64,000 nucleotides of DNA. Origin: Metabacillus dongyingensis (lineage in GTDB: Bacteria > Bacillota > Bacilli > Bacillales > Bacillaceae). The translations under genes were made by a program, and so were the position numbers. How positions within the stretch are numbered: the first letter of the stretch is position 1; each line of letters starts with the position of its first letter. The notes under the pieces were generated by a model. The model saw only the letters and a list, made by a program, of their open reading frames with translations. It made no database searches and was not told where the DNA came from. The stretch spans positions 3,536,001-3,600,000 of the forward strand of contig NZ_CP082944.1 in the NCBI RefSeq assembly GCF_019933155.2. The letters run 5' to 3'. Of this stretch, positions 21,300 through 25,986 are shown in pieces.

Positions 21300-22349
21300 T
21301 TAAGAATCCCTTTTCGTATATTCTCTCCAGGCATTAACCGTCTCATCATTCATATCTGCGAGCGCTGAATGATCCTGAATCTGACAGTGGCCAATCATCC
21401 CGCCTAAGCTGCAGGACTTTCCCACATAGCTATTTTCCCATAAAATCGAATGGGTAATTTCCGATTTTTCATGGATAATAGCAGACTCTGAGAGAACCGT
21501 CTGCGGACCTACTATAGCGCCTTCATGAATAATCGTGTTCCTGCTTATATAGATCGGTCCTTTTAATGTCACATCATCATGAATGGTCACACCATCCTCC
21601 ATCCAGATGCCTTTAGCTATCTCTTTGCCCTTAGAAGGAAGATTGACTTTATGATGGAGCATATCAAACTGAGCCTCGCGATATGTTGCTAGTGTCCCAA
21701 TATCAGACCAATATCCCTCAGCTTCAAAAATACTGATTTTCTCATTATGCTTTAAGATTGCAGGAAACACATCTTTACTGAAGTCATAATGAGTGAAATC
21801 TTCGAGATAGGTAAATATCTTTGGGTCAAGAATATAAATCCCCGTATTAATAGAATGTTTAGTGAGGTCGCTCCAGTTTGGCTTTTCGAACATCTTATCC
21901 ATTTTTTTATCTGCGGACAAAAGCACTCCATATTCGATTGGCAAATCCAGCGGTTTTGTAAAGATTGTCGCTGCTGCAAGCTGGTCCTCATGATGCTGTA
22001 TTCCTGCACTCAAATCAAAATCAGTCAGAATATCTCCGCTTATAACAAGAAATGATTCCGTCAGCATTTGCTCTGCCAGTTTTACACTTCCTGCTGTACC
22101 GAGAGGCATTCCGTCTTCACTGTAAGTAATGGTGACACCCCATTTAGAACCGTCCCCAAAATGGGACCGGATAGAAGATGACAAATAATGCACAGTCATA
22201 ATAATATCAGTGATTCCATGTCTTTTTAATAACTCAATGCTATATTCCATGACAGGCTTGTTTAATATAGGGACCATTGGTTTTGGACAATGATTTGTAA
22301 GAGGTCTAAGCCTGCAGCCTTCTCCGCCTGCGAGGATCACAGCTTTCAC
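21300..22349 (-). CDS. Sugar-phosphate nucleotidyltransferase with left-handed beta-helix tail
   Basis: About 349 residues from GTG 22349 (AAGGAG 9 bases upstream). The N-terminal nucleotidyltransferase has [13 protein letters not shown] and [15 protein letters not shown], and a GDILTDFD metal site. The C-terminal third has hexapeptide-type repeats ([23 protein letters not shown]). Similar to the mannose-1-P guanylyltransferase / glucose-1-P nucleotidyltransferase group; the substrate cannot be decided. It follows the GH57-GT4 gene by 13 bp, so it likely supplies the nucleotide sugar for that enzyme. Confidence 0.85.
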
Positions 22350-22362
22350 ATTTTTCAGCTCC

Positions 22363-25005
22363 TTATCTTTTATGATAAAGCACTTCATACTCTTGAATAA
22401 TTTTTTTCACGATATGTTCATAGGCAAATCGGCTCAAAATTTCTTTATATCCCTGTTGAGCCAGACGGTCTGCCCGCTCTTTATGTTGGAGTGCCTCTAG
22501 GATAGCTGATGCCAAAGCTTTTGAATTTCCCCGCTCAAATAGGAGGCCATTTTCATTGTGCTTGATAATCTCTTTTAACCCGCCGGTATTTGCAGCAATT
22601 GTCAGTTTTTTCGCTGCCATGCTCTCCAGTGCAACAATTCCAAATGGTTCATAATAGCTCGGAATGATATTCATCTCACAGTGCGTAAGGAGTATATGTA
22701 TAAGGTCTTCATCTATAAAACCAAGGAATGTTACATTTTCATGAACGTTCAATTCTTTCGCTTTTTTCTCATATTCGTTGCGATGCGGTCCATCTCCTGC
22801 TATTACAATGCGGATTTTAGGAAAACGCTTCAAAATACCCGGTATGGCGGATAACAGCACATCAAAACCTTTTTCTGCGACAAGTCTTCCCATCGAGAAA
22901 AGATACGGCTGCCCAGTCAATGATAGATCATTGCGCTTTTGTGAATTTTTAACATACATATTATTTTTTAAAAGATTTATTCCATTAGGGATTACAGTTA
23001 GTTTTTCAGAAGGTATGTGAAATTGCTCCTTGACCTCTTTCAACATATAGTCACTGCACACAATCACCTGATCTGCAGCTTGCACCAGCAGGCATTCTTC
23101 CCTTTGTATATACTTCTGCAGAGGGGTCACGATCTCGCCGTTCCTTCCCAGTTCTGTCGCATGAATCGTTGCAATCAGCGGCACTTTAAACAGCTTTTGT
23201 ATAGATCTTCCCGCCCCTGCTGTCAGCCAATCATGAACATGCACTAAATCATATTTGATGTGACTATTCTTTATTAGAAATTGAACAAATGCACTATTGT
23301 AATTTATTGCCCACTCAGAGAGCGACTGATGCTTTTGCTGAATAGACTGTATGCGGTATATATGCAGGTTGGGAACTGGATTCTCATATAATGGGAGTTC
23401 TTCATCAGAAGCTATTGTAAGAAGCGCAACTTCATAATTTTGTCCAGCAAGTGCATTTGTCAGCTTATCTACATGCCTTCCAAGCCCCCCGACTAGATTT
23501 GGGGGATATTCTGTAGACACCATCAGTATTCTTGGCCTGTCAGCAAACGCTTGTAACTCAGATGTGTTTCTTTTCAATGGAAGAAATGTAAATAAATCTG
23601 GTTCCGGGTTATAGGTTTCTAATTCTTCATCCGATCGTCCGCTCAGTTCGTAATAATTATTTAGGTGCTTTTTAATACGATAATGTCCATAATCAGCAGA
23701 AGTGCCGTTTCCAATCATGAATGTCCAGTCACTGCTTGCGGCAAGCATCCATTCCTTAATTAGGCACCATTTTTTCCTTGTATTCATTTCCCGGGAATTT
23801 ACAGAAGGGTTGAATAACTGTTTCTCGATTAAATGAAAGTGCTGAAAGTATTCCGCTGTTTTTTCATTCAGCCATATATCACCGTACCCATTTCTTCCCC
23901 ATGTAGAAAAAGCTAAGCCGTCGTGGCCGCTGACATTATTTTTGTTTCCCAGCCAATCAGAAGGGAGAACAAACGGGTTTTCCTTCTTTAACAGCTCAGA
24001 AAGAAAGGCAGGACCCTCAAACCACCAATGGCCGAATAACTCAAAATCAAATGGAAGCACAATAAGCTCTGTTGCAGGACGCAGCCTCTCCAAAAAATTA
24101 TGTGCATCATTTCCAGCTTGTTCAAATGCCATTTCATCATTATAAATCTTTTTATCCTCTGTCTTTCCAGTTATACTCCAAAGTTTCAGTCCGGTATTGA
24201 TTCTTGTCTTTTTAAGAAATGCAAACTCTTTAATATCTTCCCAATTCCTAGTCAACCCGACATCCCGGTAATATTCCCGATATACATGATGTGCAGGGTA
24301 TCCCCTATGCTTATCCCATACAGCGTTAGCTTTTTCTCTGTTCCGTTTAAAAATTGTGAGGCCCTTATAGTTCAAAGCAGGGCCATTTATTTCAGGTGAA
24401 TCGGCAAACGTGTATGTAATTCCTTGTTGAGTGAGAATCTGCACGGTCTGGTCATTTATCGCCATCTCCGGCAGCCAAAACCCTTTTGGAGCTGTTCCGA
24501 AATGGTGTTCAAACACTTTCATTCCTGTTTCCACTTGCATTTTCATGCCTTCATCCGTGCAATGAAAAGGGAGAATTGCATGTGTTGCACATGTAGTGAT
24601 AGCCTCAATTTTTCTTTTTTTAAATAGATCAATATATCCTTTTAAAATATTGCCCTTAAATTCTTCAAAGGTTTGGATGATCTTATTGTAATGAGATAGA
24701 TAAAAGTGTAATACTGATCGCTCCTCATTAGTTGCCCTGCTGAATTCTGATCTGATTAACAAAATCATTTTATCCAAGTGACAGCGGTATTTTTCCTGGG
24801 TCTTCTTATCGGTCAGCATTTCCATAAGAGTAGGGGAAAAAGAGATAGTGATGGACGGATTGTCCAAACCGTTTAAACTCCAAAGCATTGGAATATAGGA
24901 TTCTGACAGAGCTTCAAAAAGCCAGAGCTGTTCATATTCTGTATTTGTATAGTCAGTTATGAAAGGCAAGTGGGCATGAAGAATGATCATGCTGTTTTTC
25001 ACCAT
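22363..25005 (-). CDS. GH57/DUF1957 - GT4 fusion protein
   Basis: 880 residues in two enzymes. Residues 1 to about 480 form a GH57-type domain: the N-terminal HAHLPF, GFWLPE with the putative nucleophile E180, and [12 protein letters not shown] with the putative acid D320, then a DUF1957 helical part ([11 protein letters not shown] near 418-427). These are the residues used by GH57 branching enzymes. From about residue 491 a GT4 (GT-B) glycosyltransferase begins: [35 protein letters not shown] and the EPFGIVALE acceptor motif at 786-794. Glycogen-synthase-like GTs and GH57 branching enzymes are usually separate proteins, so this would be an elongating and branching enzyme in one chain. Glucan product is inferred, not shown. 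No signal peptide, so cytoplasmic. Confidence 0.85.
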
Positions 25006-25020
25006 GTGCTGATACTCCTT

Positions 25021-25467
25021 CTATTTGTCATATACCGTATAAGCTGAGAATTGCTTTTCCCAGGATTCAGATTCCTCTTTATAGGCTGTCCAGTCAGCAT
25101 CTCTGCCATCAGTATCCGTCATTTTCAATTCATTTGACTTCAGAACAGTCAGTTTAACATTTTCAGATGTTTGCAAAATTAATTCAGTATAGTAGCTGGC
25201 AGCTGCTCCTATGCCTTTAATAAAAAGATAAGTTTGTTCATCTGTGATATCAAAATCTTTATAGAAAAGAGTGCCATTCTTTTTTTGATAAAGTCTTAAC
25301 GTTTTTTTTAGAGAAGAAAAAGGCTCCCTGCATAAAATGGAGAGGGCAATTTCAGTTTTAAACCCTACATTCCACTGTAAATACAAAACAGATGGATTTT
25401 TCATTATAAGAGTCATTGCATCTCCATGCAGATGGTTTATTTGATCCATTGAGGGCTGATTTATCAA
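25021..25467 (-). CDS. DUF4912 protein
   Basis: 148 residues. TTG start 5-6 bases after AAAGGGATG. Core features match DUF4912 (a WNVG segment, an aromatic YYTELILQTSE segment, and DADW near the C-terminus). No catalytic motif known. First gene of a three-gene unit with the GH57-GT4 fusion (15-bp gap) and the nucleotidyltransferase; in other bacteria DUF4912 genes often lie beside GH57 genes, so I infer a carbohydrate-binding or regulatory role. Confidence 0.75.
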   Translation of the reverse strand: MINQPSMDQINHLHGDAMTLIMKNPSVLYLQWNVGFKTEIALSILCREPFSSLKKTLRLYQKKNGTLFYKDFDITDEQTYLFIKGIGAAASYYTELILQTSENVKLTVLKSNELKMTDTDGRDADWTAYKEESESWEKQFSAYTVYDK

Positions 25468-25638: not shown

Positions 25639-25986
25639 ATGGAGATTATGATCATTGCCCTGTTTGTAGTCAGCATTCTTTTAATTGGCATCTCTTTCTT
25701 TCAGAGAGATCACTTAAAAGATATTGAACAGGAAGTTGAACACCTGTCGGTTTCTTCTATGCAAGAAATATACAAGCTGAAGAAAAAAGTCAGAGTGCTT
25801 GAAGAAGAAATTCTTCAAAATGATCTGGAGCTAACTGATAATGATTCGATTGACCCTCAGACGCTTCAGCGTATCATTTTGAAACATAATCAAGGCTTAT
25901 CCACTGAAGCAATTGCAAGATCTGAATACTTAAGCGAAGAAGAGATCGGAACCATTCTTAGAAAGAATGAGAGGGTCTTAACATGA
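25639..25986 (+). CDS. yqzD: YqzD-like membrane-anchored coiled-coil protein
   Basis: 115 residues. One N-terminal transmembrane helix (IMIIALFVVSILLIGISFF) followed by a coiled coil (about 25-65) and a small helical domain (LQRIILKHNQGLSTEAIARSEYLSEEEIGTIL) that resembles a helix-turn-helix. It overlaps yqzC by four bases (ATGA). Identity is based on position before yqzC and phoU/pst. Confidence 0.75.
   Translation: MEIMIIALFVVSILLIGISFFQRDHLKDIEQEVEHLSVSSMQEIYKLKKKVRVLEEEILQNDLELTDNDSIDPQTLQRIILKHNQGLSTEAIARSEYLSEEEIGTILRKNERVLT

Follow-up and report, generated by a model that had tools for sequence, protein, structure and literature searches.

Introduction

In mycobacteria, the GT4 glycosyltransferase Rv3032 elongates α-1,4-glucan oligomers (PMC2674218). 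The sections cited give it little or no role in bulk glucan, and place beside it the putative branching gene Rv3031, within the methylglucose lipopolysaccharide cluster (PMC2674218, PMC4981310). Archaeal GT4 genes beside GH57 genes are noted as possible unknown glycogen synthases in a 2024 Chem Rev review (PMC11046441), and GH57 "branching-enzyme-like" proteins that lack one or both catalytic residues have been described as a group of 60 (PMC6037648). Here, we describe a three-gene cluster in a 64,000-nucleotide stretch of the Metabacillus dongyingensis genome (NZ_CP082944.1, positions 3,536,001 to 3,600,000; hereafter, the window), in which a GH57 domain and a GT4 domain are joined in a single 880-residue protein, flanked by genes for a DUF4912 protein and a sugar nucleotidyltransferase. 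The module formed by these genes is real and deeply conserved, and the fusion itself is widespread and already in the databases. In relatives, loss of the GH57 active site, or of the whole half, has occurred repeatedly, while the GT4, where the gene survives, is intact.

Some GH57 branching enzymes have a long catalytic loop tipped by a tyrosine, and shortening of the loop or changing the tyrosine costs branching; Thermotoga AmyC lacks this loop, being 11–12 residues shorter, and its branching activity is weak, at 10.5 mU/mg against 480 mU/mg for the Thermococcus enzyme (PMC6616209, PMC10346327). Up to 30% hydrolysis is reported for AmyC, whose α-1,4 transfer was stronger than that of the two other GH57 enzymes in the comparison; AmyC does branch, forming 8.5% α-1,6 bonds (PMC6616209, PMC10346327).

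The three-gene cluster and the GH57-GT4 fusion

The cluster lies on the minus strand and consists of the DUF4912 gene (25021..25467; 148 residues from an uncertain TTG start, with the tail WEKQFSAYTVY), the GH57-GT4 fusion (22363–25005; 880 residues) and the sugar-1-phosphate nucleotidyltransferase (21300..22349; 349 residues from a GTG start, with a left-handed β-helix tail). Given these starts, the genes are separated by 15 and 13 bp, which reproduces the arrangement given by the first-pass annotation. (The mechanical list of open reading frames (ORFs) begins the nucleotidyltransferase further upstream, at 22388, overlapping the fusion; the GTG start was used instead.) Twenty full-length fusions, 97 to 33% identical to that in the window, could be aligned with it, and, in named loci from many phyla, the gene immediately upstream of GH57 encodes DUF4912 in 56 of 71 cases, after exclusion of nine of 80 loci that had no GH57 at the threshold used. 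The cluster is thus not due to chance, and the expectation that its genes recur together in other genomes was borne out. Mis-assembly was likewise rejected, as homologous loci occur in many genomes.

A search with Pfam hidden Markov models placed GH57 at residues 7–339 of the fusion, BE_C at 415–455 and GT4 domains within 505–854, so that both domains proposed from the letters alone are real. We divide the protein into a GH57 half (residues 1–470; 23596..25005, minus strand), an interdomain linker (471–490; 23536..23595, minus strand) with a predicted local distance difference test score of about 47–55, and a GT4 half (491–880 and the stop codon; 22363..23535, minus strand). In the model of the whole fusion (predicted template modelling score 0.60) the linker is unsure, and the model is too uncertain there to position one active site relative to the other.

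The catalytic nucleophile E180 (codon 24466..24468, minus strand) aligns with the glutamate of WLPE/WLAE in TT1467, TK1436 and AmyC, and the catalytic acid D320 (24046..24048, minus strand) with the aspartate of F/YDAELFGHWW. The two residues match the catalytic pair of the solved GH57 branching enzymes, with the Glu on strand 4 and the Asp on strand 7 of the family fold, and are invariant in 61 aligned fusions. All 12 of the 12 active-site residues examined are kept in the window GH57. The GT4 half has the GT-B fold and the E-x7-E motif, EPFGIVALE (residues 786–794; 22624..22650, minus strand), in which E786, P787, F788, G789, L793 and E794 are invariant among the same 61 fusions, and I790, V791 and A792 nearly so.

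In codon comparisons with four congeners, the ratio of nonsynonymous to synonymous substitution rates (dN/dS) was 0.128, 0.203, 0.168 and 0.153 for GH57, and 0.114, 0.168, 0.167 and 0.166 for GT4. The resulting GH57/GT4 ratio of 0.9–1.2 indicates similar purifying selection on the two halves, both of which, with their catalytic sets kept, look active, as the first-pass annotation had supposed. The nucleotidyltransferase is held more tightly (dN/dS 0.034–0.065 against the same congeners).

Distribution and repeated loss of the GH57 half

Both domains were present in 120 of the 120 nearest proteins among the matches listed. In the window's own family, 34 of 80 genomes had a match at E 1e-60 or better and 46 had none. 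The full fusion was found in five of seven congeners; G046 and G050 carry a direct DUF4912::GT4 fusion of 561–578 residues, with a nucleotidyltransferase 81% identical to that in the window. The matches in 27 genomes of other genera were to GT4 only. When 15 loci from these genera were read, selected on a match to GT4 or PF16258, all 15 had a DUF4912-like gene and GT4 without GH57 beside yqzC, with yqgN next in 14 (L146 stops at the contig end). A GH57 profile search matched something in 76 of the same 80 genomes; the top score apart from the five congeners with the fusion was 39 bits over 85 profile positions.

Across the order, loci from 92 of the 93 genomes with a match were classified (G296 was left out). 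They comprised 28 with an intact, long-loop GH57, four with a short-loop GH57, 35 with GH57 remnants that lack the E/D pair and retain 0–3 of the 12 site residues, and 25 without GH57 (17 GT4 only and eight DUF4912::GT4). These classes derive from one MAFFT alignment, in which the most eroded remnants are placed with less certainty. Assignment to the DUF4912::GT4 class was manual for all eight loci, and in six the DUF4912 score was weak (8–18 bits). The seven checked GT4 residues were kept in 92 of these 92 loci, a count that covers matching loci only. Six loci of one genus (L240 and L243–L247, family f11) contain a second apparent direct DUF4912::GT4 fusion with DUF4912 scores of 8–18 bits, and this genus has, in addition, dead GH57 domains both at full length (L189) and shortened (L242).

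A careful IQ-TREE tree of the GT4, with 65 rows, required seven changes between active and inactive GH57 (six to seven in the 5–95% bootstrap range). Its well-supported branches alone force three changes, and none of 200 bootstrap trees could be reconciled with a single one. With six states scored on a quick 103-row tree, the number of changes was 19. While the tree alone cannot separate gain from loss, remnants derive only from intact domains.

Selection on the relatives was measured by dN/dS in 11 pairs. In the eight pairs with a dead GH57, two of which share a genome, the N-terminal part had a dN/dS of 0.117–0.310 against 0.040–0.108 for GT4, and thus evolved 2.1–7.7 times faster. In one intact pair and one with the short loop, the GH57/GT4 ratio was near 1, and a further intact pair was saturated. 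Since the dead remnants are still below neutrality, they are probably retained as folded, non-catalytic domains.

The yqgL-yqgM slot

The cluster occupies a conserved slot. A gene that we take to be yqzC-like (25639..25986, plus strand) forms the upstream edge, with a homologue next to the cluster at each of the 20 loci fetched. Directly downstream is a gene that, by its sequence, we take to be rpmG, for L33 (21032..21181, minus strand); the fetched loci, for which ORFs of <60 residues are unlisted, yielded rpmG in one case only (L143). The flanks are presumably yqzC/yqzD and pst genes on one side and rpmG/yqgN and yqgO on the other. This agrees with the first-pass annotation, which placed the cluster where B. 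subtilis has yqgM. Counts of promoter and terminator signals were near those in shuffled sequence (21 against 15.8, standard deviation 4.1; 2 against 3.8) and thus uninformative.

We read five loci, chosen by their PF16258 match, from a presumed B. subtilis genus, which was assigned by gene order and by a named B. subtilis control that matches PF16258. In this slot, which we take to be that of yqgL and yqgM, the neighbours are the same, and a DUF4912-like gene is accompanied by a GT4 with 27–30% identity to the GT4 half in the window. Unlike in the window, there is no GH57 and no nucleotidyltransferase in the five loci. The GT4 is 359–377 residues long and has the seven checked residues, and the idea that yqgM is a broken C-terminal GT4 piece is therefore wrong. 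Accordingly, yqgM is better read as a putative ortholog of the GT4 half, and yqgL-yqgM looks like a stripped-down form of a larger machine.

In a later, unselected count of 44 genomes of this genus, 16 had both genes, adjacent by coordinates and without GH57, while 27 had neither (28 lacked the DUF4912-like gene and 27 had no GT4 match). The GT4 is a 132-residue fragment in one of the 17 genomes that match (G014) and is split over two frames in another (G015). The fragment, the split gene and the 27 genomes without either gene suggest that the presumed B. subtilis genus is losing the cluster. These comparisons make the suggested "fusion or replacement" of yqgM doubtful: the GT4 is common to both arrangements, and it is the GH57 half that comes and goes.

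The shortened catalytic loop of the window GH57

Between alignment columns 203 and 213 (residues 203–213; 24367..24399, minus strand), the catalytic loop has nine residues in the window clade, whereas other fusions and AmyC have about 20, a difference of 11. Most fusions outside the window clade thus have about the loop length of AmyC, and are themselves without the extra 11–12 residues. In family f6 (L206, L215), the loop also has nine residues, and W28 and R221 are changed there. The flexible catalytic loop with a tyrosine at its tip that marks the high-branching GH57 type is missing from the window GH57. By extrapolation from AmyC, we do not file it as a high-branching enzyme; cutting or α-1,4 transfer, rather than branching, is the better guess for its expected activity. 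The first-pass annotation had suggested elongation and branching of one polymer. A glucan pathway is plausible, while the branching is doubtful, considering the length of the loop.

DUF4912 and the nucleotidyltransferase

The DUF4912 protein scored 32.5 bits against the Pfam PF16258 gathering cut-off of 29.4. A family member (L017) that is 16% identical to it models as a fibronectin-III-like β sandwich, which suggests that DUF4912 is probably an adaptor. A motif for the aromatic C-terminal tail, drawn up by eye after viewing the sequences, was strictly matched in 48 of 98 DUF4912 ORFs, among which a few loci are counted twice. Of the remaining 50, most have a more relaxed ending (S-Y-Y, T-Y-Y), with exceptions that include L206, L215, L235, L237, L238 and L241. 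The DUF4912 profiles were built from ORFs of the same loci; on rechecking with the curated Pfam model, eight of ten passed, and L027 and L151 were significant but below the cut-off.

Some DUF4912 proteins differ in organization. In three genomes of one genus (L203, L204, L207), there is no DUF4912 gene, and the DUF4912 C-terminal tail is fused to the N-terminus of the GT4. A protein from Caldiserica (L027:5360-5983) has an N-terminal Rho_N domain, and two others (L038:5241-5957 and L077:11579-12274) start with what by eye resembles a membrane helix.

The nucleotidyltransferase matched Pfam NTP_transferase with 173 bits. Among solved structures, it is closest to a UTP-glucose-1-phosphate uridylyltransferase (PDB 8x7s, 183 bits), followed by mannose-type enzymes. 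In six of 12 named fused loci (L009, L010, L011, L016, L017, L024), the nucleotidyltransferase is 739–930 residues long and includes a part that matches a phosphomutase profile. The same long protein (NTP::PMM) is found in 14 named loci with separate GH57 and GT4, and PGM_PMM domains were confirmed by Pfam in the one NTP::PMM checked, from L009. The 349-residue protein in the window corresponds to the first part only. The frequent fusion to a phosphomutase in relatives fits the earlier proposal of a precursor-making enzyme next door.

Neighbour families were defined as gene clusters, with Pfam run on one or two representatives of each. Alpha-glucan-type neighbours are found in some relatives, including phosphorylase, GH15 and glgC-like genes. 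The fused GH57-GT4 loci L009, L016, L017, L022 and L024 share a gene family, assigned to GH15 by Pfam in L016.

Proposed function and alternatives

We favour a specialised α-glucan or oligosaccharide module, in which the GT4 builds and the GH57 edits, beside the canonical glg operon. The nucleotidyltransferase, with a phosphomutase in many relatives, would make the NDP-glucose donor, from which the GT4 half would extend an α-1,4-glucan-type chain. The GH57 half would cut this chain and either release it or re-attach it, mainly via α-1,4 bonds since the branching loop is missing, and the tethering would let the cutter edit chain length during growth. DUF4912 might hold enzyme and glucan together, with its aromatic C-terminal tail contacting the GT4. 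Many Bacillales have an editing half that is dead or gone, and their GT4 would work without GH57, which would be the yqgM state; others would have lost the whole cluster. That these parts constitute an old, four-part cytoplasmic α-glucan module, with a DUF4912 adaptor, a GH57 processor, a GT4 elongator and a nucleotidyltransferase that makes the NDP-sugar, we regard as an even bet. Only tentatively do we propose the more specific form: a tethered synthase-plus-editor for an unrecognised Bacillales α-glucan or oligosaccharide, with the tail of the fibronectin-III-like DUF4912 docked on the GT4, an editor inactivated or deleted several times independently, and yqgLM as an end state.

Several observations weigh against this interpretation. 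The GT4 half scored 155.7 against a cut-off of 302.4 for glgA_Coryne (TIGR02149), the GH57 half 198 against 920 for the NCBIfam model of the Thermus branching enzyme, and the nucleotidyltransferase at best 196.5 against 292.1 (Arch_glmU), with none of the 25 of 38 NCBIfam matches shown over its cut-off. No NCBIfam cut-off was thus reached among the matches listed for the three proteins, including any that would specify the donor sugar, and the donor and acceptor proposed above are accordingly tentative. The GT4 fold fits MshA, sucrose-phosphate synthase, BshA and HepE about equally well, and these enzymes presumably do not make glucans. The GT4 persists without GH57 in 25 of the 92 loci of the order and with a dead GH57 in 35, and the nucleotidyltransferase is beside the GT4 in only three of the 15 loci from other genera, being missing in 12. 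At the thresholds used, 156 of 249 genomes of the order had no match, against 93 that did, and of the 44 genomes in the presumed B. subtilis genus, 16 had the DUF4912-like gene and 17 a GT4 match. The window DUF4912 evolves fast (dN/dS 0.32–0.69), which is not the pattern expected of a tightly held adaptor, and AmyC, with its loop shortened in the same manner, is still a branching enzyme. Finally, the genome has a glgB-C-D-A-P operon at about 4.02 Mb (G000:C1:4016000-4035000; L158), comprising a GH13-type branching enzyme, glgC, a glgD-like gene for which only a β-helix domain was shown, a GT5 glgA and a phosphorylase. A role of the cluster as the main glycogen pathway is accordingly less likely; it would be a second glucan-type system, which need not be the main one.

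The cluster might instead be a compact synthase and branching enzyme for a branched, glycogen-like polymer, as the first-pass annotation had it. The catalytic residues, the gatekeeper-type tryptophans and BE_C are all kept in the window GH57, most fusions outside the window clade have the loop length of AmyC, which does branch, and DUF4912-GH57 pairs adjoin glgC-like genes in two distant phyla (L027, L084). However, the window clade is short of a further 11 loop residues, branching is low even in the loop-less AmyC (PMC10346327, in the part cited), and the glg operon already supplies a GH13-type branching enzyme, making this reading unlikely. Equally doubtful is that the GT4 half glycosylates a non-glucan acceptor (lipid, teichoic-type or small molecule), with the GH57 trimming or proofreading the glycan. 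Such a role would be consistent with a GT4 that is kept without GH57, with the absence of the nucleotidyltransferase from the presumed B. subtilis slot, with MshA and BshA among the closest folds and with a good score of the nucleotidyltransferase against mannose-1-phosphate guanylyltransferase (man1P_GTase_Rv, although at 175.7 against a cut-off of 440). Against it, GH57 is an α-glucan family, α-glucan enzymes are located near the module in part of the sampled loci, and the best PDB relative of the nucleotidyltransferase is the UTP-glucose-1-phosphate enzyme. That the window GH57 is itself becoming a dead domain, with a binding or structural role only, is less probable still: the loop is shortened as in f6, where W28 and R221 are gone too, and two congeners dropped GH57 wholly, but all 12 site residues are kept and the GH57/GT4 dN/dS ratio is 0.9–1.2 (four pairs), far from that of the dead remnants.

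The module with a building GT4 and an editing GH57 would link, in one testable unit, the GH57-GT4 fusion, which the databases name by its domains only, with DUF4912 and, by position, with yqgL and yqgM. The graded series of intact, short-loop, dead and deleted GH57 beside a site-keeping GT4 amounts to a natural mutagenesis of the cutter's effect on the builder, and the short-loop yet constrained GH57 is well suited to testing whether, as claimed, the loop is what sets branching apart from cutting and α-1,4 transfer.

Comparison with known systems

Our literature searches found no report of a connection between DUF4912 and GH57 or of the fusion, and no description of the graded erosion in Bacillales or of the orthology with the yqgLM slot; the single DUF4912 paper among the results concerns cotton callus. 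Compared to the GH57 branching enzymes AmyC of Thermotoga maritima (2b5d), TT1467 and TK1436, the window GH57 differs by its fusion to GT4 and by a loop that is shorter than even that of AmyC; like TT1467, it has a methionine instead of a cysteine after the nucleophile. The previously described "branching-enzyme-like" set required five conserved sequence regions, according to the part cited (PMC6037648), whereas erosion has gone much further in the Bacillales remnants, which are mostly shortened and are joined to an intact GT4. GlgM, the actinobacterial "GlgA" (TIGR02149, 6tvp), has the GT4 fold in common with the window and is the best NCBIfam glycosyltransferase model for it, yet the score falls well short of the cut-off, as given above.

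In the clostridial-type split module (L025 Carboxydocella, L081 Desulfovirgula), GT4 and NTP::PMM are convergent with DUF4912 and GH57. The same parts are thus gathered in one locus, but GH57 and GT4 are unfused and the phosphomutase is present. In Rv3031/Rv3032, a GH57-type gene (we take Rv3031 to be GH57) adjoins a GT4 gene, and the same adjacency is seen in the actinobacterial-type loci L018, L020, L021 (labelled Cyanobacteriota in the taxonomy, but Rhodococcus in its title) and L042, in which the profiles used found no DUF4912 or nucleotidyltransferase. The mycobacterial pair are two genes, not fused as in the window, and the window trio is not a methylglucose lipopolysaccharide cluster of the Rv3030-Rv3037c kind, having no methyl- or acyltransferase and being flanked by rpmG/yqgN and yqzC/yqzD. 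Rv3031/Rv3032 is the best precedent for the function of the module.

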